Shown: one piece after another, positions 1 through 24,500 of the stretch
How positions within the stretch are numbered: the first letter of the stretch is position 1
Layout of the letters: each line of letters begins with the position of its first letter
Origin: Immundisolibacterales bacterium
GTDB taxonomy: Bacteria; Pseudomonadota; Gammaproteobacteria; HK1
Assembly: GCA_026712715.1 (NCBI GenBank)
Contig: JAPOPW010000077.1
Location: forward strand, 1-64,000
Direction: 5' to 3'
Length of the DNA: 64,000 nt
Made by a program: the position numbers and the translations under genes
Notes under the pieces: generated by a model
Seen by the model: the letters and a program-made list of their open reading frames with translations, nothing else
What the model was told of the DNA's origin: nothing
Database searches by the model: none

Positions 1-130
1 ACACTGAAATGCCCCTCTCCCCCGCTCCACACCGACCCTCCGGGCCATCAACCGCCGACCGACCTCTCGAAAACGCTCCGAAGAAAGCGAAACAACGCGC
101 CAGAAAACAAAATCGCGACCTTCATGCAAC
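1..130. other. Non-coding left edge of the window, upstream of the phage genes
   Basis: No convincing coding region is seen here. The stretch from about 65 to 120 is locally rich in A, unlike the flanking phage coding DNA. It may be the upstream region of the following gene or the 3' end of an unseen gene. No attachment site or promoter can be defended. Confidence 0.4.
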
Positions 131-613
131 ATGCGGGCTAGTGCCGTGATTCGCCCCAAGGTAAGGGTACGGGGTGGCGACCGTCTCAAGCGCCATCTAG
201 CGGGGCAGGCACGCGCATCTAGGGCCGTTGATGGGCGAGAGGTGGATATCGGCTTCAAGGGCCGGGTGGCAGGCACGGCCGCATTGCATGAGTACGGGGG
301 CGGGACCATACCGGAGCGGCCCGTCTTCCGGGGCGCGGCCCGCATGGATGGGGCGATGACGCATAGCCTACGTGAGAGCGTTCGTAGCGTGCGTGGCGTG
401 CCATCCAGGGGTGAGCTAAGGGAGGCTGCGCGAGCGGGTGCTGAGGGCCTTCGTGGGGCCTATCTGGGGGCAAGGGCGCACGTTCGGCCAGTCGGGCCTA
501 CGCAAGAGGCACGCAAGCGCGGTACTCCGGGCGAGGGCCGTCCGCTTGTCGGGACCGAAGGGCCGAAGATGGTCAACGCGATTCGCGGCTATGTGGACGA
601 TGACCGGGCATGA
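131..613 (+). CDS. HK97 gp10-like phage tail completion / head-tail joining protein
   Basis: A 160-residue protein with the layout of the gp10 / virion-morphogenesis family. It has an early glycine-containing strand (VDIGFKGRVAG), then LHEYGGGTIPERPVFR, which matches the family's 'EFGT..IPPRPF.R' core, and a C-terminal PLVGTEGPKMVNAI, matching 'PLidTG.m..sI'. Family members complete the head-tail connector or tail terminator. It lies 48 bp upstream of terL on the same strand. In canonical HK97-like cassettes this gene lies after the capsid and connector genes, so its position before terminase is unusual. The start is uncertain because no strong ribosome binding site precedes 131. Family by motif resemblance only. 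Confidence 0.6.
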   Translation: MRASAVIRPKVRVRGGDRLKRHLAGQARASRAVDGREVDIGFKGRVAGTAALHEYGGGTIPERPVFRGAARMDGAMTHSLRESVRSVRGVPSRGELREAARAGAEGLRGAYLGARAHVRPVGPTQEARKRGTPGEGRPLVGTEGPKMVNAIRGYVDDDRA

Positions 614-661
614 TGGCACCGGCGGAATGGTCGAAAAGGGCCGTGGGCGTGGCAGGGGGGC

Positions 662-2185
662 ATGGGTAAACACACTCTCCCGAATGACCTGATCGCCTAC
701 CTGGGCGGGTTGACCCTCGCGGGTGGCGACCGCGACGGCGAGGCTTTCACGGTGCTCCCGTGGGAGCGGAAGTTTGTCCGGGGCGCCTTCGGCCAGCCGG
801 GCCATGCTGCGCTATCGGTCGCCCGGGGGAACGGCAAGAGCGCGCTTGTGGCGGGTATCGCGGCGGCCGTGGTGGACCCGTCCGGGCCGTTGCACGGGAC
901 CCGCCGTGAGTGTGTCGCGGTGGCTTCGTCATTTGACCAAAGCCGGATCATCTTCGAAGACGTTTTGAGCTTCCTACGGGCGCGGTACGGCCTTGAGAAT
1001 CGCAAGCTGTGGCGCCTTCAGGACTCCGCGAACCGGGCGATTGTCGAGTACCGCGCGACCGGGGCGAGGGTACGCACGATCGGCTCCGACCCGGCGAAGG
1101 CTCACGGGCTCCGGCCCGCCCTCGCGTTGATTGACGAGCCCGCCCAGCACGACGCGGCGAAGACGGACCGGATGCTCGCGGCGATCCGGACGGGACTCGG
1201 CAAGGTTCCCGGTAGCAAGATGATCGCCCTGGGAACGGCCCCGGCCGGCGAGGATCACTGGTTCGCGAAGATGCTGGCCGGGTCCGGGGTGGGGTATGCG
1301 CAGTCGCACGCGGCCCGGGACACGGACCCGCCTTTCGCGGTGCGGACGATGCGCAAGGCGAACCCGAGCATGGATCATCTTCCGAGCCTCGCGGCGGAGC
1401 TACGGGCGGAAGCGGCGGACGCGAAGCTCGACGATGCGTTGCTACCGGGCTTCCGGGCGTTGCGGCTCAACATGGGCGTGAGCGATATCGCGGTTCAGGT
1501 GCTGATCGGCGTGGATACCTGGAAGCGGATCACGGGCGACGCGCCCCGGGACGGCCGGCCGGTATGGGGCCTTGACCTTGGGCAGTCCGAAGCGATGGCG
1601 GCGTGCTCGGCCTTCTGGCCGGCGAGCGGTCGGCTTGAATCGGTGGCCACGTTCCCGACTGTGCCGACCCTTGGCGAGCGGGGCCTACAGGATGGCGTAG
1701 GAAGCCTGTATCAGCGCATGGCGGAGCGCGGGGAGCTACTGGCGACGGGTGGTGAGGCTTGCGACATTGCGGCGCTTCTGCGGGAAGCATGGGAGCGGTT
1801 CGGGGCGCCGGCCGCCATCGCGGCGGACAGGTGGCGGGCCGACGAGCTTCGCGACATCCTGACCCGGATCGGCCTTCCCCGGGTCCCGTTCCACGAGCGG
1901 GGCCAAGGCTTCATGGACGGGGGGCAAGACGTGCGCGACTTCCGCCGCGCTTGTGTTGAGGGAAAGGTTCGGCCGGCGCCCTCGCTGCTACTGTCGAGCG
2001 CGATGGCAGAGGCGCGCACGGTGGGCGACCCGGCCGGCAATTGGAAGCTCGCCAAGAGCGCGCAAGGCGGCCGGCGGCGCAAGGCGAAGGACGATGCGGC
2101 GGCGGCGGCGATCCTCGCGGTGGCGATCGGTGCGCGTCCCGGCCCGGCCCCGCCGCGACGGTGGCGCTACCGGGGGGCGGCGTGA
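662..2185 (+). CDS. Phage terminase large subunit (TerL)
   Basis: The 507-residue DNA-packaging motor: an ATPase that pumps phage DNA into the prohead and a nuclease that cuts the concatemer. The N-terminal ATPase has a Walker A motif ARGNGKS (residues 54-60), a Walker B with acidic pair in ALIDEP (D158, E159) and a coupling motif IALGTAPAG (188-196). The C-terminal RNase H-like nuclease shows spaced acidic residues: D305 in GLDLGQSE, D389 in IAADRW, and D477/D478 before a hydrophobic helix. Length is normal for the family. No small terminase subunit is seen upstream; the gp10-like gene sits there instead. The ATG at 662 follows a G-rich stretch (GGCAGGGGGGC) that could serve as ribosome binding site. 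Confidence 0.92.
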   Translation: MGKHTLPNDLIAYLGGLTLAGGDRDGEAFTVLPWERKFVRGAFGQPGHAALSVARGNGKSALVAGIAAAVVDPSGPLHGTRRECVAVASSFDQSRIIFEDVLSFLRARYGLENRKLWRLQDSANRAIVEYRATGARVRTIGSDPAKAHGLRPALALIDEPAQHDAAKTDRMLAAIRTGLGKVPGSKMIALGTAPAGEDHWFAKMLAGSGVGYAQSHAARDTDPPFAVRTMRKANPSMDHLPSLAAELRAEAADAKLDDALLPGFRALRLNMGVSDIAVQVLIGVDTWKRITGDAPRDGRPVWGLDLGQSEAMAACSAFWPASGRLESVATFPTVPTLGERGLQDGVGSLYQRMAERGELLATGGEACDIAALLREAWERFGAPAAIAADRWRADELRDILTRIGLPRVPFHERGQGFMDGGQDVRDFRRACVEGKVRPAPSLLLSSAMAEARTVGDPAGNWKLAKSAQGGRRRKAKDDAAAAAILAVAIGARPGPAPPRRWRYRGAA

Positions 2186-2187
2186 TC

Positions 2188-2481
2188 ATGGAAATCGTTG
2201 TTCCGGCGATCGTTATTCTCGTAGGGAACCTTTTTTCTGGAGAATACGGTTCGAGACGATGGGAGTACGTCACGGCCCTGTTTGGGTGGGTTGGTGTCGT
2301 CGCAGGGGTTGTTTGGCTCCTGTCCTTTGTTCTTGCGGCCATTGGGGTGGATCCGCGAATCGGAAAATTCTTCTTTTTCGTATTTGCATTCTGTTTACTT
2401 CAGGCAGTTTCGAGGGACTACGAACGATGGCTAAAGCCACTCGTAGAGCGATGTATCAACGCGCGGAATCGAAAAGGCTAA
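2188..2481 (+). CDS. Small A/T-rich integral membrane protein in the phage late region
   Basis: A 97-residue protein beginning at ATG 2188, immediately after the terL stop at 2185; an in-frame GTG at 2182 would overlap terL. It has three hydrophobic stretches: residues about 3-15, about 28-52 (the longest, tryptophan- and valine-rich) and about 59-72, which starts with a run of four phenylalanines. A basic tail ends in RNRKG. The gene is visibly richer in A and T than its neighbours, with TTTTTT and TTCTTCTTTTTC runs, suggesting separate acquisition. A holin-like or superinfection-exclusion role is possible, but no family motif is recognised and no function is assigned. Confidence 0.6.
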   Translation: MEIVVPAIVILVGNLFSGEYGSRRWEYVTALFGWVGVVAGVVWLLSFVLAAIGVDPRIGKFFFFVFAFCLLQAVSRDYERWLKPLVERCINARNRKG

Positions 2482-2494
2482 GGCACCAAGGAAT

Positions 2495-2806
2495 GTGAGC
2501 AAACGGCGGCCCGGCTCCCGTCACCACGTCCGCCTACACTCGGGCCGATGGGCGCGGGTCCGCCGCACCGTGCTCGACCGCGACGGTTGGCGGTGCCGGC
2601 GGTGCGGGCGGGCCGGGCGGATGGAGGTCGATCACGTGGTCCCGCTCGACCAGGGGGGCGAGGCGTGGGATATGGAGAACCTGCAATGCTTGTGCCAAGG
2701 CTGTCACATTGCCAAGACGCGCGAGGAGAACCGGCGGCCCCCGACCCCGGCGGAGGCGGCATGGCGTGCGTTCGTGGCCGGGCTCGCGGGTGGGGTGTCA
2801 GGGTGA
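2495..2806 (+). CDS. HNH endonuclease
   Basis: A 103-residue basic protein with a complete HNH core. Two cysteine pairs, C34/C37 (CRRCG) and C67/C70 (CQGC), probably bind structural zinc. The ββα-metal core is EVDHVVPL (H47), N62 in the ENLQ segment, and H71 directly after the second cysteine pair. HNH proteins adjacent to TerL assist cos cleavage and packaging in HK97-like phages (established for HK97 gp74), which fits its place between terL and the capsid gene. GTG at 2495 is chosen because AAGGA lies just upstream. The stop codon lies inside the first copy of the phage palindrome (2792-2812). Confidence 0.88.
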   Translation: MSKRRPGSRHHVRLHSGRWARVRRTVLDRDGWRCRRCGRAGRMEVDHVVPLDQGGEAWDMENLQCLCQGCHIAKTREENRRPPTPAEAAWRAFVAGLAGGVSG

Positions 2807-2812
2807 CACCCC
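2792..2812. repeat. Phage palindrome, copy 1 (9-bp arms, GGG centre)
   Basis: GGGGTGTCA (2792-2800), GGG, TGACACCCC (2804-2812): perfect inverted repeat. It overlaps the HNH stop codon (2804-2806). The sequence is exactly the reverse complement of the core of copy 2 at 7308-7328. No T-tract follows, so it is not a standard intrinsic terminator. Confidence 0.9.
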
Positions 2813-2900
2813 TACCAGGTACATAGGCCAAACCTATCATTGACGACAGAACAATAGTTTGAGACGATGTCGAGATGGTTCTCTTCAGGTTCTACTCGCC
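2807..2900 (+). promoter_or_regulatory. HNH-capsid intergenic region with hairpins and a weak candidate promoter
   Basis: This 94-bp gap is the largest break inside the phage block after the terminase. It contains the end of palindrome copy 1, a second inverted repeat ATAGG-CCAAA-CCTAT (2823-2837), and TTGACG (2840-2845) with GACGAT (2863-2868) 17 bp downstream as a poor -10. The layout suggests a control region for the capsid genes; the promoter call is tentative. Confidence 0.35.
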
Positions 2901-4163
2901 ATGACCAATTCCCAAAAGCTGGCCGTCCGGCTGTCCGAAATTCGCCAGCGTCTCAACGAGATAGCCGGGCTCGACGACGACGGCATGACGGACGAAGTAC
3001 GGGCCGAAGCCGACCGGCTGACTGCGGAGTACCACAACAAGGAAACGCAGCATCGGGCGGCCGTGGTCGCGGAAGCGGACGAAGCTCGCGCGGCGGCCGG
3101 CGAATTCAACAACGACGACGGGGCCGGCGAGGGCGCGGAGGTTCGGGCGCTTCGGGGCCGGGTGCGGATCGGCGAGTACGTCTCGGCGGCAGTCGAGCAA
3201 CGCTCGGCGGAAGGGGCCGAAGCCGAGTACAACGCGGCGCTGAAGATTCGCGGAAACGCATTCCCGCTTTCGCTGATCGCCCCGGCGCCAGTCGAAGCCC
3301 GGGCGACCACGGATACCGACTCGCAAACCAATCAGTCCGGCCGGTGGCTGGATCGGCTGTTTGCCGGCACGGCGGCGGAGCGGATCGGGGTGACCATGGA
3401 ATCCGTAGCGCCCGGGGTGGCGTCGTTTCCGGTGACTTCCACGGGCGCCAGTGCGGCGCAACGGGGCCGGAGCGAAGCGGCGGCGGACTCGGCATGGACG
3501 GTCGGGGTGACCGAACTCAAGCCGACCCGGAACGCGGTTCGCGTGGTTTTCAACGAGGAGGACGCGCACCGACTCCCGAGCCTGGAAGCCTCGCTTCGTC
3601 GGGACCTTGGGATGGCGCTCGCGGAAGGCGTCGATCGGGCGATCTTTCTCGGCGACGCGGGGGCCAGCGAGACGACTGCGAACATCCTCGGACTCAACAC
3701 GGCGGCCGGGGTGGTCGATGTGGAGGTGTCGCAGGCTGACAAGATCCTCGGGCCGGGGACCCTCGCCGCGTTCACCGGGCTGATCGATGGCATCCATGCG
3801 ATGGGCTTCGGCGACCTGATGATCTGTACTTCGGTCGGCGCGTGGCGCCTCTGGGAATCGACCATCATCAACGCGGCGGCCGACAACATGACGCTGGCGG
3901 CGTTCCTTCGCAAAGCCGGGGTGACGTGGTCGGCTCGGGGCGAAATCGAGACGGCTACCGACGATGGCGACTGGGGGGCCTTCATCGGTCGCAGTCGCGG
4001 GATCGACGGGGCCGGGGTGGCGGCGCTGTGGGAAGCCGGGATGTTGCTTCGCGATCCCTACTCCGCGAGCGCGAAGGGCGAAATCAACCTAACCCTTTCC
4101 TATTTCTGGAATTTCGGTCTTCCCCGGGCGTCCAACTTCGCCCGGCTGTCGTTCGGGGCCTAA
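2901..4163 (+). CDS. HK97-family major capsid protein
   Basis: A protein of about 420 residues from ATG 2901; an upstream in-frame TTG at 2859 would add 14 residues. Residues 1 to about 100 are charged and helical, with alternating Glu/Arg/Ala (MTNSQKLAVRLSEIRQRLNE), as in the scaffold-like delta domain that the prohead protease removes. The rest matches the HK97 capsid fold: a mid-protein PVTSTGASAA / TELKPTRNAVRVVFNEED strand region, LEASLRRDLGMALAEGVDRAIFLGD, the capsid spine helix, and a C-terminal segment with IGRSRGIDG and LRDPYSASAKGEINLTLSYF. The capsid gene precedes the protease here, the reverse of the usual HK97 order. Confidence 0.9.
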   Translation: MTNSQKLAVRLSEIRQRLNEIAGLDDDGMTDEVRAEADRLTAEYHNKETQHRAAVVAEADEARAAAGEFNNDDGAGEGAEVRALRGRVRIGEYVSAAVEQRSAEGAEAEYNAALKIRGNAFPLSLIAPAPVEARATTDTDSQTNQSGRWLDRLFAGTAAERIGVTMESVAPGVASFPVTSTGASAAQRGRSEAAADSAWTVGVTELKPTRNAVRVVFNEEDAHRLPSLEASLRRDLGMALAEGVDRAIFLGDAGASETTANILGLNTAAGVVDVEVSQADKILGPGTLAAFTGLIDGIHAMGFGDLMICTSVGAWRLWESTIINAAADNMTLAAFLRKAGVTWSARGEIETATDDGDWGAFIGRSRGIDGAGVAALWEAGMLLRDPYSASAKGEINLTLSYFWNFGLPRASNFARLSFGA

Positions 4164-4164
4164 C

Positions 4165-5085
4165 GTGGTCGAGCGGCGGGCCGGTGGTGAGGTTCGGGTC
4201 TCCGGCCGGACCCTCACCGGCCCGGTAATGCCGTATGGAGATGTCTCGCCCGACTTCGGCGAGCGCTTCCTGCCGGGTGCGTTCGGCGCGGTCGGGTCCG
4301 TCGATCTGAATCTCCAGCATGACCCGTCGATCATTGTCGCCCGGGGCGCTACGCTCACGGACGGCCCCGAGGCGCTTCGCGTGCGGGCGACCCTTGCCGA
4401 AGGTAGCGCTGCCCTTTCTCTCGTCCGTAGAGGAGCATTGCGGGGCTTCTCCGTGGAATTCCGGCCGACTTCGGAGCAACGCTCGGGCGGGGTGCGGGTA
4501 GTCGAGCGGGCGGTGCTAACCGGGCTCGCCCTTGTGGACCGTCCGGCCTATCCAGGGGCCGGGGCGGAGCTACGGGCTCGCGGCGACCGGGGCGGCCGGC
4601 TAGGGACCTTCCGTGGTTCGGTCCCGATTGGCAAGCGGCTTTCGTGCCGGTGCGCCCCGGGGAACTGTACCGAAGCCTTGTTCGAGGAAGAGGCGTTTGA
4701 TGGCGTGGCCACGAAAGCCGAAGTGCTGGCCGTGGTCGGCGACTACGCGAACGCCATCGCATCGAAAGCGCGGGGCGGGGTCCGGTTTTGGAAGGGGTGG
4801 GACGGGGCGCTTGAGTATGCAATCGACGTACCGAACACGGCCCGGGGCAAAGCGCTTGTCGAGAGCTTCGATTCGGTGCCGTTGATCGCCCGCCCGGTTA
4901 TCGATGTTGATGCCTCTGACGTGGTGGTCGCGGACCAACTGGCGACCTACTCCCGCGCCGAAGTGCGCGCGCTGACCATCGGCGCGACGGACGCATCCGA
5001 GGGGTGGCCACTACTCCGGCGCAAGCGCGGGGCCGATGACGACGAACCGCGCCCGGCGCGGCGACGGTGGAGGGTGTTTCTATGA
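4165..5085 (+). CDS. HK97-family prohead protease with a second degenerate protease-like domain
   Basis: A 306-residue protein starting at GTG 4165, one base after the capsid stop. Residues 1 to about 135 are a standard prohead protease: GPVMPYGDVSPDFGERFLPGAF, the catalytic-type His in LNLQHDPS, the Ser in LRGFSVEFRP, then VLTGLALVDRPAYPGA. Typical members are about 150-220 residues. The remaining ~150 residues, after a cysteine-containing linker (LSCRCAPGNCTEA), repeat the same spacing: EALFEEEAF, GDYANAIASKARGG, VPLIARPVID, and YSRAEVRALTIGATDASEGW. The His and Ser positions are replaced (GDYAN, LIARPV). The first half should cleave the capsid delta domain; the second half is probably structural (inference). 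Confidence 0.82.
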   Translation: MVERRAGGEVRVSGRTLTGPVMPYGDVSPDFGERFLPGAFGAVGSVDLNLQHDPSIIVARGATLTDGPEALRVRATLAEGSAALSLVRRGALRGFSVEFRPTSEQRSGGVRVVERAVLTGLALVDRPAYPGAGAELRARGDRGGRLGTFRGSVPIGKRLSCRCAPGNCTEALFEEEAFDGVATKAEVLAVVGDYANAIASKARGGVRFWKGWDGALEYAIDVPNTARGKALVESFDSVPLIARPVIDVDASDVVVADQLATYSRAEVRALTIGATDASEGWPLLRRKRGADDDEPRPARRRWRVFL

Positions 5086-5369
5086 CGCCGACGATCTTCG
5101 ACTTGGGCGATGGGCCGATCAATCTCGCCACGGAATGGCCGATTTACCGCGACGCGATCGGGAAACAGCCGATCTTCGCCTTCGTTCAAAACACCGGCGA
5201 CGGCACGGTCTACGTGGCGGCCCGGACCACGGAGCCGGACGTTTCTGACACCGGACACGTGCTCGGCCCGCGAGAGAGCTTCGATATCACGCTCCCGGAC
5301 ATCAACGCGACCGGGACCTGGATGTGGTCACCGACCGGCGCCGGCCGGGTTGCGGTATCCGCGCGATGA
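5082..5369 (+). CDS. Small beta-rich phage protein of unknown function
   Basis: A 95-residue protein whose ATG (5082) overlaps the protease stop by four bases (ATGA), indicating coupled translation. It has no membrane segment or cysteine. The sequence alternates short hydrophobic strands and turns (PIFAFVQNTGDGTVYVAART, SFDITLPDINATGTWMW), a pattern typical of a compact beta sandwich. Between protease and connector genes, decoration, head-fibre or capsid-stabilising proteins are common, so that is a reasonable but unproven guess. No specific family recognised. Confidence 0.65.
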   Translation: MTPTIFDLGDGPINLATEWPIYRDAIGKQPIFAFVQNTGDGTVYVAARTTEPDVSDTGHVLGPRESFDITLPDINATGTWMWSPTGAGRVAVSAR

Positions 5370-5773
5370 GCGCCATAACCGGGCATCGTCTCGCGGCCGA
5401 CGACCCGGCTACCGGATCGGCCCCGTTATCGCCGTGGCCAACCGCGGCGGCCGGGCAAGCGGCGGCCGTGGCGCGGTTGATCGCGGTGGCCGGTTCGAAT
5501 GGCGGAGACGATGCGGTAGCGGCTCGCGGTGAGGCGGGGGCCGGGTTGGTTGAGAAGTACGCGCCCGGCGCCCCGCAGTCGGTGAAAGACGAAGCCGTGA
5601 TTCGAATCGCTGGCTGGATGATGCAGAGCGACTTCGGCGGGGTCGAATCGGAGACGAGCGTCGGCAACAAGGAGGCGCGCTACTTCCGGCCGCCCGTATC
5701 CGTGTTCCGCTACTCCGGGGCGCAGGGTCTGCTCGCTTACTGGCGCGTTCGTCGTGCCGGGGTGATTGGCTGA
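5366..5773 (+). CDS. Phage head-tail connector protein (gp6-like)
   Basis: A 135-residue protein. ATG 5366 overlaps the preceding stop by four bases, and its own stop TGA (5771-5773) shares one base with the portal ATG. The central helices (AAAVARLIAVAG, EAGAGLVEKYAPGAPQSVKDEAVIRIAGWMMQS) match the all-helical gp6-type connector that forms the ring below the portal. The tail contains RYFRPPVSVFRYSGAQ followed by LLAYWRVRRAGVIG, a conserved C-terminal signature of these adaptors. In canonical modules this gene follows the capsid gene, as here, but the portal should already have appeared upstream. Confidence 0.75.
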   Translation: MSAITGHRLAADDPATGSAPLSPWPTAAAGQAAAVARLIAVAGSNGGDDAVAARGEAGAGLVEKYAPGAPQSVKDEAVIRIAGWMMQSDFGGVESETSVGNKEARYFRPPVSVFRYSGAQGLLAYWRVRRAGVIG

Positions 5774-6858
5774 TGCGCTGGCCGTGGTCGAAGCGCGAGG
5801 CGGCGCCCGAGCGGCGCGAAGCGGTGCCGTTTACGGACGCGGTAGTGGCTGCTCTCGGGGCGCAAGCGGCCGGGACGGCTACCGGTGACCCTTCGGCGAT
5901 TGCGGCGCTTGAGGCGGCTGCCGGGCTGTATGCGACGGCATTCGCAAGTGCGACGGTGACGCCATCCAATCCGATGACGGCCGCGCTCACCCCGGCGTGC
6001 CGTGCCTTGATTGCCCGGGATCTGATTCGGCGGGGCGAACACGTTTCCCAGATCATCATCACGGGCGGCGGGGTGCGGCTGCAACCGATCGGCTCTTGGG
6101 ATGTTCGAGGACCTGCTGATGAACGTGGGTGGTGGTATCGCATCGACGAGTACGGCCCGAGTGACAACCGGACTCGCGTGGTCGCTGGCCAGTCCGTCAT
6201 TCATTGCCGGTACGCGGTCGATTCGGCGCGGCCGTGGTACGGGCTCGCGCCCCTGCAATGGGCGCGGGCAACCGGGACCCTCGCGGCAAACCTGGAAAGC
6301 CGGCTAGGCGAAGAGGCGGGCGGGCCGGTTGGTCACATTCTGCCGGTACCGGCCCCGGGTGCCCCGGGTGGCGAGGGCGATGACTTCGACGATCCGCTTA
6401 CCGCCCTACGTGCCGACCTTGCGGCGGGGGAGGGCAAGACGCTACTGGCCGAAACGACTTCGGCCGGATGGGGCGAGGGCAAGGCGGGCGCCCCCAATGC
6501 CGACTGGAAACCGCAACGCTTCGGCGCGAGCCCCCCGGACGTACTCCCGACATTGCGAACGGACGCGGCCCTCGCGGTGCTGGCGGCGTGCCAGGTACCG
6601 GCGGGCCTATTCACGGACGCGGACGGCACGAGCCAGCGCGAGGCGTGGCGTCGATGGGCGATGGGTCCACTTGCCGGGCTCGCGGCCGTGGTCGAAGCGG
6701 AGATTGCCGCGAAGTTGGATCAGCCTGTGCGGCTCGGCTTCGACGGGCTGTGGGCGCATGACCTTGCGGGCCGTGCGGCGAGCTTCAAGGCGATGGTCGG
6801 CGGCGGGATGGATATCGCGAAGGCGGCCGGGCTCGCGGGGTTGATGGCGGGCGAGTAA
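5773..6858 (+). CDS. Phage portal protein
   Basis: A 361-residue protein. Portals form the dodecameric ring at the capsid vertex through which DNA is packaged. Recognisable parts are the N-terminal MRWPWSKREAAPERRE basic start, a wing region leading to VVAGQSVIHCRYAVDSARPWYGLAPLQWA (the common portal 'vlHir......GlsPl' stretch), a central helical stem around ALRADLAAGEGKTLL, and QVPAGLFTDADGTSQREAWRRWAMGPLAGLAAVVEAEIAAKL, matching the conserved clip/crown segment. It is somewhat shorter than HK97 gp3 (about 420). It is coupled to the connector gene by a one-base overlap and to the next gene by another. The position downstream of the capsid is unusual. Confidence 0.85.
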   Translation: MRWPWSKREAAPERREAVPFTDAVVAALGAQAAGTATGDPSAIAALEAAAGLYATAFASATVTPSNPMTAALTPACRALIARDLIRRGEHVSQIIITGGGVRLQPIGSWDVRGPADERGWWYRIDEYGPSDNRTRVVAGQSVIHCRYAVDSARPWYGLAPLQWARATGTLAANLESRLGEEAGGPVGHILPVPAPGAPGGEGDDFDDPLTALRADLAAGEGKTLLAETTSAGWGEGKAGAPNADWKPQRFGASPPDVLPTLRTDAALAVLAACQVPAGLFTDADGTSQREAWRRWAMGPLAGLAAVVEAEIAAKLDQPVRLGFDGLWAHDLAGRAASFKAMVGGGMDIAKAAGLAGLMAGE

Positions 6859-7220
6859 TGCCTCTCTGTTCCGGCCCGGCATGCTTCGTGAGTGTTTACA
6901 TGCGCGGTATGTATTGCCGGGCATGTCGCGTAGCTCTCGGGATGCCGACCTGCGCTATCGAGACGTGTCCGAATTCGCCATTGTCGCGCGGGCTGTGCAC
7001 TCGTCACCACAAGGCCGCGCAGGCAGCCGGAACCTTGCCACAATTGCCGAAGGCGAAGACGACGCCGAAGCCTCACCAAAAACTTCGCTTAGTCAAGACG
7101 ACGAAACCCTACGAAACCCCATCCGACCGCGACCGGCAACGTGTTCGCGTGAGACGGGCAATCGAAGAGAAATTAGAAGATCTGGCGATGGCGCGGGCCT
7201 TTGCTGATGGCGATTGGTAG
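6858..7220 (+). CDS. Small zinc-finger-like phage protein
   Basis: A 120-residue protein whose ATG shares one base with the portal stop (TAATG). It carries two Cys clusters: C4/C9 followed by MYCRACR, and CAIETCPNSPLSRGLCTRHHKAAQAAG, which fits the 'C....C.......gLC..H' zinc knuckle often seen in small phage proteins. The second half is highly charged (KAKTTPKPHQKLRLVKTTK, then RDRQRVRVRRAIEEKLEDLAMARA) and probably helical, so nucleic acid binding is plausible. No precise family or function can be given. Confidence 0.6.
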   Translation: MPLCSGPACFVSVYMRGMYCRACRVALGMPTCAIETCPNSPLSRGLCTRHHKAAQAAGTLPQLPKAKTTPKPHQKLRLVKTTKPYETPSDRDRQRVRVRRAIEEKLEDLAMARAFADGDW

Positions 7221-7261
7221 ACTCCCCGTTCGGCCGTAATCGCAGACGACATCGTGCGACG

Positions 7262-7594
7262 ATGAGCGAGCCGGGCAAGTTGACGACTTCGCATCTGGAA
7301 CCGGGCCGGGGTGTCACCCTGACACCCCGGCCAATCCCGTCCAGCAAATTTCGCGACGGCCATCGGTTCGGGACCGTCCCGGTCGCGGCGCTCGCGCACA
7401 TCGAAACGTCCACGGTCGAATCCCATTACCGGAAGCTCCGGGAGCGGTGGGACCCGCGCCGGGTCGAGCCGATCCTTTTGGCGGTCGGCGACCGGGGTGG
7501 GATCATCCTGCTCGACGGTAACCACCGATTGCGGGCGCATCGCGAGTTTGGCGAGCCTACGATTCGCGCGATCGTTCGGTTGCCGCGCGAGTAA
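7262..7594 (+). CDS. ParB/Srx-fold protein (ParB N-terminal-like domain only)
   Basis: About 110 residues from ATG 7262; an in-frame TTG at 7214 overlaps the preceding gene. The core is ILLDGNHRLRAHREFGEPTIRAIV, which resembles the 'vvDGhHRl.A....G...v.v.v' box of ParB/Spo0J N-terminal and related single-domain phage proteins. The preceding VPVAALAHIETSTVESHYRKLRERWDPRRVEPILLAV supplies the usual upstream helices. There is no helix-turn-helix DNA-binding domain, so it is not a partition protein by itself. The 5' coding part contains copy 2 of the phage palindrome with 13-bp arms. It is the last gene before the terminator. Function unknown. Confidence 0.6.
   Translation: MSEPGKLTTSHLEPGRGVTLTPRPIPSSKFRDGHRFGTVPVAALAHIETSTVESHYRKLRERWDPRRVEPILLAVGDRGGIILLDGNHRLRAHREFGEPTIRAIVRLPRE
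7304..7332. repeat. Phage palindrome, copy 2 (13-bp arms, CCC centre)
   Basis: Arms GGCCGGGGTGTCA (7304-7316) and TGACACCCCGGCC (7320-7332) around CCC. The 21-bp core (7308-7328) is the exact reverse complement of copy 1. It lies inside the 5' coding part of the ParB-like gene, where it encodes GRGVTLTPR. In RNA it would form a very stable 13-bp hairpin; no T-tract follows. Confidence 0.9.
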
Positions 7595-7906
7595 CGTCGC
7601 GTCATAGAAGCGGGGGGGGTGTCACCGTGATACCCCGGCCTTTTTTCGTTTGGGCCATGTTGCGGCGGTAGGTTTGTGGGTACGTCGGAGGGGTGGTATT
7701 ACATAACCGCTTGACTTGGTTTATTTATTTACGTCGCGCCGGACCCCGGCCGGGAACCCGACCGCGCTTTCTCCCCGGGACGGCGCCCCCAGAGTCCACG
7801 AAGGCGGCGGACTCGAGCTCTGCGAGCAGCGGCCGGGAACGCGGCGCGGACGCGCAGCCGGCACGAGGCGAGCACGGGACCCGCGCCAAAGCGGAGCAAG
7901 GCGGTC
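7595..7906. other. Phage-host boundary region without a gene
   Basis: This 312-bp gap holds the phage terminator, then an A/T-rich patch at about 7697-7731 (ATTACATAACC, then TTGACTTGGTTTATTTATTTACG), then GC-rich DNA leading into the exporter gene. The composition change suggests the phage end lies between about 7647 and 7740. No tRNA fragment, integrase or recognisable att core is visible. TTGACT at 7711 is -35 like but lacks a -10 at proper spacing. Confidence 0.4.
7616..7646 (+). terminator. Intrinsic terminator closing the phage operon (palindrome copy 3)
   Basis: GGGGTGTCA (7616-7624), CCG, TGATACCCC (7628-7636) form a hairpin with one G-U pair in RNA, followed by GGCC and six T residues (7641-7646). 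It sits 21 bp after the ParB-like stop codon. This third copy of the phage palindrome differs from the others by a single arm base and is the only one with a T-tract. Confidence 0.75.
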
Positions 7907-9679
7907 ATGGGCGGTGAAAGGCCTCCGGTGGATTCCGGATTCCTGGATTCGGGGCGAGAGATCGGCTCGCCGTCCATCTTGCGGCCGTTCCGCCGCCCGC
8001 TCGTGCAGGCGAGCTGCGCGTCGTTCTTCGTTCAATGCCTGGGACTGGTTCCTTCCGTCGCCCTGCTGCTCGTCATCGACCGGGTCATCGTCAACAGCGC
8101 CTTCGAGACGCTCGACGTCATCGCGGTCGGAGTGGTTCTCGCGGGCGGATTCGAGTTCCTGTTCGCGCGCGCCCGCGAACGCCTCCTCGGACGTGCTGCC
8201 GCCGATGCCTGGTCGGGTCTCATGGAACGGGTGTACCGTCATCTTCTCCACCGGCCGCTCGCAGCCCCGGCACCGGCGGAGTCCGTGGTGCCCGCGTTCG
8301 AAGAGGCGGGGAGAGTTCGCGCCTTCGTCTCCCGCTTGGCGGTCGGTCACGTCACCGACGTCGTCCTCGCAGTGGTCTTTACCTCGTTCCTGCTGCTGGT
8401 GGACGTGCGGCTCGCCCTCATTGCGATTGCGGGGATTCCGGTCTACGCGCTCATCGTCCTCGTCACCCTGCCGGCGGTGCGGCGGCGTTCCCGGCGGGGC
8501 ACGGCGAGCGCGCAGCGGTGGGGCTTCGTGGTGAACCAGACGGTGGTGAATCTCGAAACGGTCCGTTCGCTCGCACTCGAGAACGGATTCGAACGACGCT
8601 GGCGGGACCTCGTGCGCGAATCCGCCGAGGCGCAGGACGCGGTGCACCGGCTCTCGGGCGGCATCGCAAACACCACGGAGCTCGTGCAGCGGATCCTGAC
8701 CGCGGCCATCCTCTGGTATGGCGCCGGGCTCGTGGTGGCCCAGGAGATCTCCCTTGGCCAGCTCGTCGCCTTCAATCTCATCGCGATGCGGCTCTCGGCG
8801 CCGATCATCCGCGCCTCCCGGGTCTGGCCGGACATCCAGCGGACGCGGGACGCGGTGCGCCGGATCGAGACGCTCTTTCGCGAGCATCTCGACTCGGATG
8901 CGGGCAAGACGGCTCTCACCAGGCGCCCGTCCGGGGAGATCCGGTTCCGGGACGTGACCGTGCGGTATCCGGCGGCGCCCGCCCCCGCCCTCGAAGGAGT
9001 CGACTTCCGTATCGCTCCCGGCGAGTTCGTCGCCCTCGTCGGTGCCTCCGGAGCGGGCAAGAGCACCCTCGTGCGGACCTTGCTGGGACTCTGTCGCCCG
9101 GACCGGGGGGCGGTGCTCGTCGACGGCATGCCGGTCGTCGAAATCGACGGCCGCACGTTCCGATCCGTGGTCGGGGTCGTTCCCCAGCATGCGGCGCTCT
9201 TCACCGGTACCGTCTACGACAACATCGCGCTCGGAGACCCGCGGGTCCGGCCGGAGGACGTGGAGCGATCGGCCGCGCTCGCCGGGGCGTGCGAGTTCAT
9301 CGAACGGCTTCCCGACGGCTATCGATCGTTCGTCGGCGAGCGTGGACAGGCGCTCTCGGGCGGGCAGCGCCAGCGCATCGCGCTCGCTCGCGCGCTCGTC
9401 CGCAACCCTGCAATCCTCATGCTGGACGAAGCGACGAGCGCGCTCGACTTCGAGGAGGAGGCGTCTTTCTTTGAACGGATCGAACAGGCACGGGGCGCCC
9501 GCACCGTCCTCGCCGCCACCCACCGGCCCGCTGCGGTGGCGGCGAGCGATCGCATCCTCGTTCTCCGCGACTCTCGTCTCGTCGAGGCCGGCACCCACGC
9601 CGAGCTGGTTCGCGCCGGCGGGGTCTACAGCGCGATGTGGTCGCGCTGGCTGCCTCCGGGCCTCCTCCCGTGCGCATAG
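7907..9679 (+). CDS. Type I secretion-type ABC exporter, fused permease-ATPase (HlyB/PrtD-like)
   Basis: A 590-residue half-transporter that would couple ATP hydrolysis to export of a protein substrate across the inner membrane. Residues about 25-310 form the membrane domain with several hydrophobic spans (VQCLGLVPSVALLLVIDRVI, VIAVGVVLAGGFEFLF, VVLAVVFTSFLLLVDVRLAL). The nucleotide-binding domain has Walker A GASGAGKST (379-387), the LSGGQRQR signature near 483, Walker B ILMLDEATSALD near 505 and the switch histidine in AATHRP. It is shorter than HlyB and lacks an N-terminal C39-like domain. AAGGCGG precedes ATG 7907. It overlaps the HlyD-like gene downstream. No outer-membrane factor or RTX substrate is visible nearby. 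Confidence 0.85.
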   Translation: MGGERPPVDSGFLDSGREIGSPSILRPFRRPLVQASCASFFVQCLGLVPSVALLLVIDRVIVNSAFETLDVIAVGVVLAGGFEFLFARARERLLGRAAADAWSGLMERVYRHLLHRPLAAPAPAESVVPAFEEAGRVRAFVSRLAVGHVTDVVLAVVFTSFLLLVDVRLALIAIAGIPVYALIVLVTLPAVRRRSRRGTASAQRWGFVVNQTVVNLETVRSLALENGFERRWRDLVRESAEAQDAVHRLSGGIANTTELVQRILTAAILWYGAGLVVAQEISLGQLVAFNLIAMRLSAPIIRASRVWPDIQRTRDAVRRIETLFREHLDSDAGKTALTRRPSGEIRFRDVTVRYPAAPAPALEGVDFRIAPGEFVALVGASGAGKSTLVRTLLGLCRPDRGAVLVDGMPVVEIDGRTFRSVVGVVPQHAALFTGTVYDNIALGDPRVRPEDVERSAALAGACEFIERLPDGYRSFVGERGQALSGGQRQRIALARALVRNPAILMLDEATSALDFEEEASFFERIEQARGARTVLAATHRPAAVAASDRILVLRDSRLVEAGTHAELVRAGGVYSAMWSRWLPPGLLPCA

Positions 9680-10977
9680 TCGCCATCCTCGGCCTCCTGC
9701 TCGTGACCGCGGCGGCCGTCTCGTGGGCAGCCAGGATTGACATCGTCGCCCCGACCCGGGGTGAGGTGGTTGCGCGCGAACGCACGCGCGAGGTGCAGGC
9801 GCTCGTGACGGGGGTGGTCGCCGCCCTTCACGTCGAGGAGGGGGTCCACGTCCGCAAGGGCGCGCTGCTGGTGGAGCTCGACGACGCGATCGTGGGATCG
9901 GAGATCCGGCGAATCGAGGCCGAGATCCTTGCGGCCAGCCACGCGGCGCGCCGGCTGCGTCTTCCCGGGCGCGCAACCGTCGCCGGGGTCGCGGGGCGGG
10001 ATGAGCGGCCGGAGCGCCGTCCGGGGCCGCAGCCGTCCCGCATACCGGCCGATTCGGGTTGGGATCTGCATCGGCGACTGGCGGATCTCGAGGGGCGCCG
10101 GCTCGCGGCCGCCCTCCGCGAGGCGGAAGCAAGGGTCGGCGCGGCGCGGTCGAGGCTCGCGTCCGTCGAGGCGGAACGCCGACTCGTCGGGCGGCTGCTG
10201 CCGGTCATCCGCGAGCAGGTCGACGGGCTCGAGGCCCTTTCCGTCCGCTCGCACGCATCCCGCCACGACTACCTTCGCGAGCTCTCGCGGCTGCTGGAGT
10301 TGGAGGGGCGGGCGGAGTCGCTCGCGCTCGCCGGACGCGGCGAGGAGGAAGAGCTCGGCCGCCTGCAGTCGGCCGCGCGCCTCCTTCGCCACGAGCACGA
10401 CACCGCACGCCAACGCGAGCTCGTCGAAGTCGAGCTCGCGCTTGCGAAGCTCCGGGAAGACCTCGTTCAGGCGCGCCGGCGTTTCGCCCGGCACCGCGTC
10501 GCGTCGCCGGTCGCGGGGGTGGTGCAGGATGTGGGGGAGCTCGCCGCAGGGAGCTTCGTCCGCCCGGGTGATCGGCTCATGGCGGTGGTGCCGGTCGGAG
10601 GCGGGCTCGAGGTCAGGGCCTACGTCCGCAACCGTGACGTGGGGTTCGTCAAGGCCGGGCAGGAGGCGATAGTCAAGATCGACGCCTTCCCGTTCACCCG
10701 CTACGGGACCACCGAAGGGGTCGTGGACGGCGTCTCCCTCGACGCGGTGGGCGGCTCCGGGTCAGGGTCGCCGGACGCCGGGGCGGACGAGATCGGAGCG
10801 GGCTACCTCGCCCGCATTTCCCTGCGCCGCCCGACGATCGAGATCGACGGGGCGGTGGTTCCGTTGCGCCCGGGCATGCACGCGGCGGTGGACATCCGTA
10901 CCGGGCGTCGCCGATTCATCGAGTACGTGATCGCTCCCGTCGTCGCGTACGGGAGCAATGCCTTCCGGGAGCGGTAG
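9670..10977 (+). CDS. HlyD-family periplasmic adaptor (membrane fusion protein)
   Basis: A protein of about 435 residues; GTG 9670 is chosen, overlapping the exporter gene by 10 bp, and GTG 9637 is an alternative adding 11 residues. It has one N-terminal membrane span (IVAILGLLLVTAAAVSW), then a first lipoyl half-motif (TGVVAALHVEEGVHVRKGALLVELDD), a long charged coiled-coil region (about residues 80-280, interrupted by a proline-rich stretch ERRPGPQPSRIP), the second lipoyl half (HRVASPVAGVVQDVGELAAGSFVRPGDRL) and a beta-barrel domain ending in PLRPGMHAAVDIRTGRR. HlyD proteins bridge the ABC exporter to a TolC-like channel. Its pairing with the preceding gene defines an incomplete type I secretion locus. 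Confidence 0.85.
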   Translation: MRIVAILGLLLVTAAAVSWAARIDIVAPTRGEVVARERTREVQALVTGVVAALHVEEGVHVRKGALLVELDDAIVGSEIRRIEAEILAASHAARRLRLPGRATVAGVAGRDERPERRPGPQPSRIPADSGWDLHRRLADLEGRRLAAALREAEARVGAARSRLASVEAERRLVGRLLPVIREQVDGLEALSVRSHASRHDYLRELSRLLELEGRAESLALAGRGEEEELGRLQSAARLLRHEHDTARQRELVEVELALAKLREDLVQARRRFARHRVASPVAGVVQDVGELAAGSFVRPGDRLMAVVPVGGGLEVRAYVRNRDVGFVKAGQEAIVKIDAFPFTRYGTTEGVVDGVSLDAVGGSGSGSPDAGADEIGAGYLARISLRRPTIEIDGAVVPLRPGMHAAVDIRTGRRRFIEYVIAPVVAYGSNAFRER

Positions 10978-11790: not shown

Positions 11791-12513
11791 TCACCGTCGC
11801 GCCCTGCGCCATCCCGCCCGGCGCGCCTCCGACTCCGTGCAGAACCATCGCTCGCCCCGGGCGGTGTTGATCCGGGTCCGATCGTAGCTCCGTCCGCCCG
11901 GCACGTGGTAGATGCGTGCGCCTCGCGCGCCGATGTTGCCCTTGATGCGGCAGCCGGCCGCGCGCTTTCCCGCCGCCGCCCTGCGCTGGACGCGGCGCCA
12001 CTCCCACGGCGCCATGAACCTGCCGCGCCAGACCCCCCGTCGCTCGTTCCGGGCTGCCCGCTCCTCGTGCGTGTACGCCTTCGAGTGGCGACGATAGGCG
12101 AGCGCCCAGCCGTTGGCGACCATCCACGCCCCGAGGTCCACCCGCCCCGCGCGACAGACGGCCACGATGCGCCCGTAGCGGTCGCGATCCTTCGAGACGC
12201 ACGCCACCGCACGTCCGGCGATCCGACGCGTGAGGGCCCGGGACGCCTGCGCGCCGCAGCGCCACCGTCTCCCTCCCGCCCGGCAGGTCTGCGCGCTCTC
12301 CGGTGCGTCGATGCCGAAAATGCGAATCTGGACTCCCGACATGTCGAGCGAGTCGCCGTCGACCACGGAAACGCGCCCGGTGAACTGCGCGGACCCGGGC
12401 GACGCGAACATGGCGGCCGCGAGCGCGAGGCAGACCGAAAGGGTGTGGGCGGGGCGCCCCGTGCGTCCGCAGGCCGACCCCTGCACGTCGGCGTACCGGT
12501 TCCGCCCGTGCAC
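11791..12513 (-). CDS. Secreted staphylococcal nuclease-like (SNase) protein with C-terminal extension
   Basis: About 240 residues from GTG 12513, which is preceded by GGGAG; GTG 12486 is an alternative. A signal peptide (THTLSVCLALAAAMFASPGSAQ-like region) precedes the SNase domain: VVDGDSLDM, IRIFGIDAPES, the cysteine-containing GGRRWRCGAQAS, VSKDRDRYGRIVA, and WMVANGWALAYRRHSKAY. The C-terminal extension (CRIKGNIGARGARIYHVPGG, then GERWFCTESEARRAGWRRA) is a conserved module often attached to this family. The DR.GR.VA segment supports catalytic competence. It begins 23 bp after nusB, where thiL is usual in gammaproteobacteria. Likely an extracytoplasmic nuclease. Confidence 0.82.
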   Translation of the reverse strand: MHGRNRYADVQGSACGRTGRPAHTLSVCLALAAAMFASPGSAQFTGRVSVVDGDSLDMSGVQIRIFGIDAPESAQTCRAGGRRWRCGAQASRALTRRIAGRAVACVSKDRDRYGRIVAVCRAGRVDLGAWMVANGWALAYRRHSKAYTHEERAARNERRGVWRGRFMAPWEWRRVQRRAAAGKRAAGCRIKGNIGARGARIYHVPGGRSYDRTRINTARGERWFCTESEARRAGWRRARR

Positions 12514-12536
12514 GCGGAGGCGCTCCCGAGACCCGA

Positions 12537-13049
12537 TCAGCGCTCGCGCCGGCGGCCCACCCGCCTCGAGCCGTCCGCCGCGTCGTTTCCCGGGCGGACG
12601 TCGCGCGCGAGCCGGTCGAGCACTCCGTTCACGTAGCGGTGGCCGTTCTCGCCGCCGAACGTCTTCGCGAGCTCGACGGCTTCGTTGATCGTTACCCCGG
12701 TCGGGATCTCCAGCCGTTCGACGAGCTCGAAGGCACCGAGGCGCAGGATCGCGCACTCCACGGGGTCGACCTGGGCCACCGGCCGGTCGAGAAGCGGCTC
12801 GATGCGCCGGTCGAGCCTCGGCGCCGCCGCGACCACCCCGTGCAGCAGCTCGCGGAAGAATCCCCGGTCCACGGCCGGGGCGTCCTCCGCGATCCGATCG
12901 GTCAGGAACTGGCGCTCGATCTCGGCCGCGTCCTGGCCGGTCATCTGCCATTGGTAGAGGGCCTGGACCACCGCGGCCCTCGCCCGGCGCCGCGCCCCCC
13001 CCCCGCGGCGGGGGGCGGCCGCGTCCTTGGGCACCGGGGCACCGGCCAC
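12537..13049 (-). CDS. nusB: Transcription antitermination factor NusB
   Basis: A 170-residue protein that binds boxA RNA with S10 (NusE) and supports rRNA antitermination. The conserved helical core is visible: ARRRARAAVVQALYQWQMTG near the N-terminus, RGFFRELLHGV, and the signature ECAILRLGAFELVERLEIPTGVTINEAVELAKTFGGENGHRYVNGVLDRLAR. Both ends are longer than in E. coli NusB (139 residues): a basic N-terminal AAPRRGGGARRRAR and an arginine-rich C-terminus (RRVGRRRER). It lies 6 bp downstream of ribH, the standard gammaproteobacterial ribH-nusB arrangement. Confidence 0.95.
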   Translation of the reverse strand: MAGAPVPKDAAAPRRGGGARRRARAAVVQALYQWQMTGQDAAEIERQFLTDRIAEDAPAVDRGFFRELLHGVVAAAPRLDRRIEPLLDRPVAQVDPVECAILRLGAFELVERLEIPTGVTINEAVELAKTFGGENGHRYVNGVLDRLARDVRPGNDAADGSRRVGRRRER

Positions 13050-21558: not shown

Positions 21559-24500
21559 TCAGGCGCGGGTGGCGGTGGCCCGGTCGGTGGCGGGAGCGCT
21601 CTCCCCGCCCGGCCTCTCACGGCCGGGAACGGGATCGTAGCCGAGTACGTGGCCGAGCCGCCGCTCCGCCTCCGCGACCGTCCAGTCCTTGCGAGCCGCG
21701 TAGTCCTCGACCTGGTCGCGGGCGATCTTGCCGGTGCCGAAGTAGCGCGCTTCGGGATGCGAGAAGTAGAAGCCGCTGACCGCCGCCCCCGGCCGCATCG
21801 CGAAGCCCTCGGTGAGCTCGAGGCCGATGCTGCGGTCGGGCTCGAGGAGCTCCCACAACGTTCGCTTCTCGCTGTGATCGGGGCAGGCGGGATAGCCCGG
21901 CGCGGGGCGGATGCCCCTGTACGCCTCCCGGATCAGCTCCACGTTGGTGAACCGTTCGTCCGGAGAGTATCCCCAGAACTCGCGGCGCACCCGTTCGTGG
22001 AGGTGCTCCGCGAACGCCTCGGCGAGCCGGTCCGCGAGCGCCTTGAGGAGGATGCTCGAGTAGTCGTCGTGTGCCGCCTCGAAGGCGGCCGCCCGCTCGT
22101 CCGCTCCAAATCCGGTGGCGACCGCGAACGCCCCGACATGGTCCTCCACTCCTGCACCGTGCGGCGCCACGAAGTCCGCGAGCGCGAGGTTGGAGCGGCC
22201 CGCCGGTCGCGGCATCTGCTGGCGAAGGGTCCGCACGGTCGCGATGGACGTGCGGTCCTGCGGGGCCGCGGCCGGCGCGAGAATCTCGATATCGTCCTCC
22301 CTGACGGTGCGGGCGGGGTAGAAGCCGAACACGGCGCGCGCCTCGAGCCAGCGCTCCGAGACGATCCGTTCCAGCATGGCCCGGGCGTCCGCGTGGAGCG
22401 AGCGGGCCGTCTCGCCGACCACCGGATCGGAGAGGATCCGCGGATAGCTCCCCGCGAGCTCCCAGGTGCGGAAGAACGGCGACCAGTCGATCCGCTCGAC
22501 GAGCTCTCCGAGCGGGTAGCCGTTCAGGACCCGGCGGCCGAGAAAGGCGGGACGCGGCGGCGCGTACCCGGACCAGTCGGTCACCAGCCGGTTCGCCCGC
22601 GCCGCGGCGAGCGGGGATGCGCGCCGGCTGCGCTGCTGGGCCTCGCGCTGGCGACGGAGCTGGTCATACGCGGCGCGCGTCCGGGCGACGAGCTTCGGGC
22701 GGTGCTCGGCGCTCACGAGGTTCGTCGCGACCCCGGCCGCCCGCGACGCGTCCGGGACGTAGACCACCCCGTGCTCGTAGCACGGATCGATCTTGACCGC
22801 GGTGTGCACCTTCGACGTCGTGGCGCCGCCGATGAGGAGCGGCAGCCGGAAACCCTGGCGGTGCATCTCGGACGCGACGTGCACCATCTCGTCGAGCGAC
22901 GGGGTTATGAGACCCGAGACCCCGACGAGATCGCAGGACTCCTCGCGCGCGACCGCGAGGAGCCGCTCCGCCGGCACCATGACTCCGAGGTCGATGACCT
23001 CGAAGCCGTTGCACTGCAGGACCACGCCGACGATGTTCTTCCCGATGTCGTGCACGTCGCCCTTCGCGGTGGCGAGCACGATTCGCCCCGCCCGGCCCGC
23101 GAATCCCCCGGCCCCCGGCGCGGACCCTCCCGCGGCGGCGGACTCCCCCTCGAGCCACGGGGTGAGCCAGGCGACCGCCTTCTTCATCACCCGCGCGGAC
23201 TTGACCACCTGGGGGAGGAACATCCGGCCCGATCCGAAACGGTCGCCGACCACGTTCATCCCCGCCATCAGCGGCCCCTCGATGACGTCCAGGGGCCGGA
23301 CGGCGGCGAGCCTCGCCTCCTCGGTGTCGGCTTCGATGTGGTCCGCGACCCCGGCGACGAGGGCGTGCTCGATGCGCTTCTCGACCGGCCACGAGCGCCA
23401 TAGCGCCGTCTTTTCGTCCCGCTCCCCGCGCTCCGCGCCCGCGAAGCGTTCCGCGATAGCGAGGAGCCGCTCGCCCGCGTCGGGGCGCCGGTCGAGGATC
23501 ACGTCCTCCACCCGTTCGCGCAGCTCCGGCTCCACGTCGTCGAAGACGGTGAGCTGGCCGGCATTGACGATGGCCATGTCGAGTCCGGCGCGGATGGCGT
23601 GATAGAGGAACGCCGCGTGCATCGCCTCGCGGACCCGGTTGTTGCCGCGGAAGGCGAACGAGACGTTGGAGAGCCCGCCGGACACGAGGGCGCCCGGCAT
23701 GCGCTCCTTGATGAGCCGGGTCGCCTCGATGAAGTCGGCGGCGTACGTGCGATGCGCCTCGATGCCGGTCGCGACCGCGAAGATGTTGGGGTCGAAGACG
23801 ATGTCCTCGGGCGCGAGGTCGGCTTCCCCGACCAGCAGCTCGTACGCGCGTTCGCAGATCGCGACCCGGCGCTCGAGAGTGTCCGCCTGGCCTTCTTCGT
23901 CGAACGCCATGACCACCACCGCGGCCCCGTAGCGGCGCGCGAGGCGCGCCTGCTCGACAAATTCGGCGGAACCGTTCTTGAGGCTGATCGAGTTGACGAT
24001 GCCCTTTCCCTGCAGGCACTTGAGGCCGGCTTCGATCACCTCCCAGCGCGACGAGTCGACCATCACCGGCACCCGCGCGATGTCCGGCTCGGACGCGATC
24101 AGGTTGAGGAAGCGGACCATGTACGCCTCGGAGTCGAGCAGGCCCTCGTCCATGTTGACGTCGATCGCCTGGGCGCCGTTCTCGACCTGGCTTCGGGCGA
24201 CGGTAAGCGCGCCCTCGAAGTCGCCGTCGCGCACGAGGCGCGCAAAACGGGGCGAACCGGTGACGTTCGTGCGCTCGCCGACGTTCACGAACAGCGATTC
24301 CGGGGTGATGTCGAGGGGCTCGAGCCCGGCGAGCCGGGTCGCGCGCGAGCGGCCTGCGGCGACGCGGGGGGTGGCCCCCGCCACCGCGTCCGCGAGTGCC
24401 CGGACGTGCTCGGGGGTCGTGCCGCAGCACCCGCCCACGATGTTGACGAAGCCGCGGTGCGCCCAGTCCCCGACCTCGCGGGCGAGCTCGCCCGGGCCGA

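Follow-up and report, generated by a model that had tools for sequence, protein, structure and literature searches.

A rearranged HK97-type head-gene cassette as the probable head half of a capsid-forming phage satellite

The DNA analyzed here, hereafter the window, comprises the first 64,000 nucleotides of contig C53 (78,083 bp) of an Immundisolibacterales bacterium, beginning at base 1 of that contig. It opens with eleven phage-type genes, all on the plus strand and in the order gp10, TerL, membrane protein, HNH, capsid, protease, beta protein, head-tail adaptor, portal, zinc finger and ParB-like protein. We consider this cassette, with a probability of roughly 0.83, to be the head half of an integrated capsid-forming phage satellite of about 10.3 kb (cf-PICI-like), which would build its own head and borrow the tail of a helper phage. 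Three lines of evidence are set out below: the island that can be rebuilt around the cassette, the family of elements sharing its gene order, and the match of its gene content to published satellites.

The cassette and the rebuilt island

The window capsid and portal give almost no direct family matches and their identity rests on relatives; both are too diverged for Pfam alone, so that profiles from relatives were required. The capsid is 26-30% identical to 15 relatives, all of which carry PF05065. The portal is 27-33% identical to 19 family portals, with PF04860 in all 19 that were aligned, and a fold search with its structure model (mean pLDDT just 54) returned portals exclusively at E<=1e-3, HK97 being first. 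The earlier note had made its claim conditional on the portal and gp10 being what they appeared, and both identities were upheld, that of gp10 by its PHROGs match (Table 1). What that note had called a connector is, judged through relatives, a gp6/Ad1-type adaptor: it is 37-41% identical to the adaptors of the elements L132, L248 and L249, the first of which matches phrog_40, while its own structure model was too weak for use. Among the remaining products, the TIGR01543 match of the protease falls below cut-off and the small membrane protein has no family match in Pfam or PHROGs. The beta-rich protein is perhaps a head accessory protein; a gene of 97-144 aa also adjoins the protease in L131 and L248. 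No small terminase subunit was recognized in the island by Pfam or PHROGs, although one may be encoded by a small ORF of no known family. From the protease to the zinc finger, start and stop codons overlap as previously described (ATGA at 5082, 1-nt overlaps at 5773 and 6858).

Table 1. Features at the left end of the window and the evidence for each.
Feature	Position	Strand	Evidence or remark
Insertion-sequence terminus, contig break point	1..140		Identical to ends of C75, C29, C16, C69, C56
gp10/Neck1-type tail-completion protein	146..613	+	phrog_222 'tail completion or Neck1' E 5e-6
TerL, HK97/TerL type	662..2185	+	phrog_9 E 2e-57
Small membrane protein	2188..2481	+	ORF only
HNH endonuclease	2495..2806	+	PF01844 E 4e-11
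Major capsid protein, HK97 fold	2901..4163	+	Alternative start TTG2859; relatives' PF05065
Prohead protease, S78	4165..5085	+	Peptidase_S78 PF04586 E 5e-7
Small beta-rich protein	5082..5369	+	Weak phrog_4770 E 0.008
Head-tail adaptor, Ad1/gp6-like	5468..5773	+	Frame open from 5324; relatives' matches
Portal protein	5773..6858	+	PF04860 in relatives; fold search
Zinc-binding protein, HNH-like type	6858..7220	+	Weak phrog_1271 E 2e-4
ParB-like protein	7262..7594	+	phrog_1033 E 0.0013
Right junction (attR region), copy of acetyltransferase 3' end	7734..7760		Alignment to L217
Right flank outside island: ABC transporter and HlyD-type fusion protein	7907..10977	+	Synteny, HlyD match

The window starts inside an insertion sequence, putatively IS1380-like from its ends and its CTAG target; the flanks of its copies all begin with CTAG or CTAA. 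The same insertion sequence lies behind at least ten breaks of the assembly, namely the window start, the five contig ends named in Table 1 and ends of C23, C43, C52 and C36. The ORF listed for gp10 begins at ATG131, which is part of the insertion-sequence terminus and therefore not the native start; this is probably GTG146 or a codon further upstream.

The left part of the island is found on contig C23. In two congeners (G001 and G002) the region upstream of the ABC transporter gene is shared, and in G002 it contains genes for a peptidase and an acetyltransferase. Both recur near the end of C23, where they are followed by an integrase (PF00589), AlpA (PF05930, E 4e-8; integrase and AlpA region at 40839-42292), an O-like replication gene (E 5e-7), two small ORFs and the opposite end of the insertion sequence that opens the window. 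On the left, homology to G002 ends at C23 40712, and on the right it resumes at window position 7734; both sides share one ~26-bp stretch of the acetyltransferase 3' end. The right junction aligns with positions 15557-15742 of L217 from G002 and scores 67, whereas shuffled sequences reached at most 53. The island thus ends near 7734-7760, and host genes, in a flank that is 77-78% identical and syntenic in two congeners, resume from about 7907. When the insertion sequence is removed in silico, the stop codon of the last C23 ORF overlaps GTG146 as GTGA, a sequence feature that fits C23 and C53 being joined directly. Since nearly all copies of the insertion sequence sit in CTAG, the target duplication cannot prove which contig follows which and synteny was used instead; the join is drawn from synteny together with a CTAG target that fits it, rather than from reads.

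With the insertion sequence left out, the resulting island measures ~10.3 kb, of which ~2.7 kb lie on C23 and ~7.6 kb in the window, and it runs from integrase, AlpA, O-like replication gene and two small ORFs across the insertion sequence into the cassette, from gp10 to the ParB-like gene. It lies in the 3' end of the host acetyltransferase gene, at a site that is empty in the congeners. No tRNA was found at this integration site, and no perfect att repeat of at least 12 bp at the island ends, where alignment gives only the shared region of ~26 bp. No tail or lysis gene is recognizable in the island, a divergent one among the small ORFs being possible. This particular copy may have been silenced or inactivated by the insertion sequence, which sits at the border of gp10.

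A family of islands with a fixed head-gene order

Searching with the window TerL uncovered an island without tail genes in Pseudorhodobacter turbinis (NZ_CP039965), whose capsid in turn retrieved 114 IMG/VR contigs, mostly of 4-15 kb. The order of the window recurs in nearly all that hold enough genes (nearly all of 80 IMG/VR contigs), and the canonical one in none. A TerL profile scan of GTDB genomes yielded 213 relatives; among the best 80, which were kept, TerL-MCP-(PRO)-POR is found in 71/71 loci holding TerL, capsid and portal, and the canonical order in 0. These scans were built on patterns from family members, and 71/71 is a statement about this family, not about all HK97-type modules. 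In full, the family order reads TerL-(HNH)-capsid-protease-(adaptor)-portal, the HNH gene, in most relatives, following TerL and preceding MCP. A scan of 398 evenly sampled Pseudomonadota genomes, which used the same family's capsid profile and hence checks the family rather than all phages, gave 4 strong capsid matches outside the genome of the window, all in the family arrangement as far as these short loci reach. Used singly as queries, the capsid, portal and TerL of the window gave no IMG/VR match, and capsid and portal gave none in phages. Altogether, the rearranged order reported by the earlier note is real, as the comparison of gene order that it had proposed finds it again in independent genomes; it is no scramble, and misassembly is rejected.

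The related elements are integrated islands of ~8-11 kb with an integrase, an AlpA-type excisionase and head genes, and the family occurs in scores of elements of marine and sponge-associated bacteria, across different genera and phyla. The near-twin L132 reads INT-HTH-AAA-TerL-HNH-MCP-PRO-Ad1-POR and a second one, L248, INT-HTH-primase-like-TerL-HNH-MCP-98-PRO-Ad1-POR, while a more distant IMG/VR set has TerL-MCP-PRO-portal-gp6-integrase. L117 and L133 each carry a gp10-type gene directly upstream of TerL, in L110 such a gene lies two genes upstream, and the replication genes of the relatives are AAA_25 or primase-like. A look for tail genes in 48 integrase-bounded islands of relatives found 0 unlabelled genes longer than 300 aa among 201. 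The 84 accessory proteins, considered in the 25 most-matched of 44 families, include head closure, adaptor, Neck1, ParA, Arc-type, primase and similar functions, the head closure protein Hc1 being common; no tail family is among those 25. The proposal that the order defines a lineage therefore stands, given that it is fixed across the family and that TerL places the members apart from the canonical phages sampled, with the amendment that islands lacking tail genes make up a lineage of satellites and not, as had been suggested, of phages.

Some of these islands also show where they insert. In L131 (18505-18578) and L031, the P. turbinis island (22807-22880), a tRNA-Cys(gca) gene directly follows the right-end integrase, and several other islands have the same right neighbors of about 218 and 450-470 aa (pcm and tolC-like in L131), which suggests a common integration site for these islands. 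In the P. turbinis island, an IS3-type insertion (11868-12955) separates the left integrase from the AAA gene.

In the TerL tree, the window groups with L131 and L132 (Alphaproteobacteria), L133 and L134 (Gemmatimonadota titles) and L135 (Chloroflexi) in one clade (100/99), which is sister to a Rhodobacterales-centred clade; the family as a whole is split from seven outgroup sequences (100/100), with long branches. The contigs of L133, L134 and L135, titled Gemmatimonadota or Chloroflexi, apparently derive from sponge-derived genomes, and their binning was looked at through the neighbors of L133. Identity of the window TerL to the family is 36-40%. Across 30 elements, the pairwise identities of the three proteins TerL, capsid and portal are correlated (r 0.83-0.89, uncorrected for relatedness), which favors the earlier idea of a co-evolved block. 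This idea holds only in part, because L131, the nearest TerL relative among named genomes, shares 68% of TerL and 31% of the capsid with the window, versus 53% and 61% for L132; from these identities, members of the window's own clade have clearly exchanged capsids while retaining the fixed order. The suggestion of a circular permutation is likewise only partly tenable. It could explain gp10 before TerL, but capsid-protease-portal is a same-strand reversal of portal-protease-capsid, and pure circular permutation, which cannot produce the one from the other on one strand, was rejected.

Capsid-forming satellite and competing explanations

Published work on cf-PICIs provides the definition and model that we use (PMC10690885; PMC13230959), with the helper-tail step also described in PMC11389934; PMC10448857 contributes to the definition as well and lists Pri-Rep as a signature gene. 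The island shares with these elements an integrated position, a size of ~10 kb, an integrase and AlpA, its own HK97-type major capsid protein, protease and portal, head-tail connectors (Ad1-like and gp10/Neck1-like), a large terminase with an HNH endonuclease, and the lack of recognizable tail or lysis genes. It differs in having neither a recognized small terminase nor Pri-Rep, in whose place it carries the O-like replication gene, and because no Pri-Rep gene was recognized we call it cf-PICI-like and not a proven member. By its genes, the element would thus belong with the capsid-encoding phage satellites as matched to the published definition of cf-PICIs.

According to this model, growth of a helper phage would lead AlpA and the integrase to excise the island, and the O-like protein would start its replication. 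TerL together with HNH would package island DNA into small HK97-type heads of the island's own making, which the adaptor and gp10 neck proteins would then join to the helper's tails. We infer the tail step from the published cf-PICI model and the known role of neck proteins.

The most serious competitor, though an improbable one, is a decayed prophage that lost its tail, lysis and regulatory genes and had its head genes scrambled on the way. The insertion sequence inside the island would fit such decay, as would the lack of tail genes and of a detectable small terminase. Decay occurring independently would not, however, end in one gene set and one order common to scores of elements across genera and phyla, and as a general account this explanation is refuted by the conserved order. 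Moreover, the reading frames are intact and overlap tightly, an integration site is still matched at the right junction, and the integrase, AlpA and replication gene are kept at the left end.

Less probable still is a self-sufficient element without tails, which would release its heads, or have them taken up, with no need of a helper tail. Nothing in the analysis shows a helper and tail genes are missing throughout the family, yet the elements retain gp10/Neck1, Ad1 and, in relatives, Hc1, whose known role is to join head and tail. We give even less credence to a gene transfer agent or another domesticated head cassette kept by the host. Alphaproteobacterial relatives do have head genes without lysis genes, and the portal model also resembles a GTA portal; against this, gene transfer agents have tail genes and no integrase, whereas the island has an integrase and AlpA and no tail genes. 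Its site is occupied here and empty in the congeners, and a capsid search in the other 93 genomes gave no match, which points to a patchy occurrence. An assembly or binning artefact from wrongly joined contigs, which the repeat common to six contig ends at the window start might bring to mind, has hardly any probability left and is refuted by the relatives, since TerL to portal lie within one contig and the order recurs in named isolates (Paracoccus, Salipiger, Roseovarius) and in large contigs, that of L133 measuring 287 kb.

Beyond the cf-PICI-like satellite itself, we tentatively entertain a wider reading that we hold to be somewhat doubtful. The family could be an old group of head-only satellites that radiated separately, outside the described cf-PICI clades, and that keeps a fixed non-canonical head order of its own while swapping capsids; the same joint reading would place its members in Alphaproteobacteria, apparently also in a second class of Pseudomonadota, and in Gemmatimonadota and Chloroflexota associated with sponges.

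Known systems and the reach of the family

The window order TerL-HNH-MCP-PRO-Ad1-POR is set beside cf-PICIs by description only, not beside the gene order of the E. coli type elements. The segment 270-319 kb of E. coli Sakai was discarded as a cf-PICI comparison, as it holds Sp1 and Sp2, neither of which is a cf-PICI. Among complete phages, the HK97-type HK75 has homologous TerL, protease, adaptor and gp10-type genes and a portal and capsid of the same families, but arranges them as TerS-TerL-portal-protease-capsid-Ad1-Hc1-gp10, followed by tail genes. The canonical controls HK75, PG1, Gudmit and the Pusillimonas and Sphingomonas plasmids all show TerL-portal-protease-capsid, from which the window order differs. 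Capsid before portal nevertheless has a precedent in Pseudomonas phage PAJU2, which shares the order TerL-capsid-portal-Ad1 but differs in being a complete phage of 46.9 kb with a TerS and with its protease fused to the capsid between TerL and portal. The P. turbinis island shares the arrangement int - AAA - gp6 - TerL - HNH - MCP - protease - portal and the lack of tail genes, while belonging to the sister clade, with TerL 37% and MCP 26% identical to the window.

Small, tail-less elements with portal, adaptor and terminase also exist as the cf-PISP satellite-plasmids of Vibrio and the Methylorubrum plasmid pB146-3; these are plasmids, not islands, and the Methylorubrum TerL is very distant. 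Plasmid pB146-3 (L032, NZ_CP088250) is circular, has 16,127 bp and encodes portal, head-tail connector, head closure and small and large terminase with no annotated tail gene, which makes it a candidate capsid-encoding satellite-plasmid.

TerL followed by capsid-protease-portal on one strand, within ~10 kb and beside an integrase, is an order that alone flags many small viral contigs of IMG/VR, and from their sequences these look like satellites dependent on a helper's tail. An odd order of head genes does not imply a scrambled or mis-assembled prophage. Such elements now extend to contigs titled Gemmatimonadota and Chloroflexi, and Paracoccus, Salipiger, Roseovarius and others offer culturable hosts in which tail piracy can be tested; the parts seen of a paper on the Paracoccus virome do not mention satellites.

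The source genome of the window (G000) also holds a second tail-less satellite-like island on the minus strand of C47 (10883-20774; L004/L005). Its order is int - AlpA-like - AAA_25 - portal (PF05136) - capsid (PF05065) - S78 protease - GpA-type terminase, and it combines head parts of the lambda type (the portal) and the HK97 type (the capsid).
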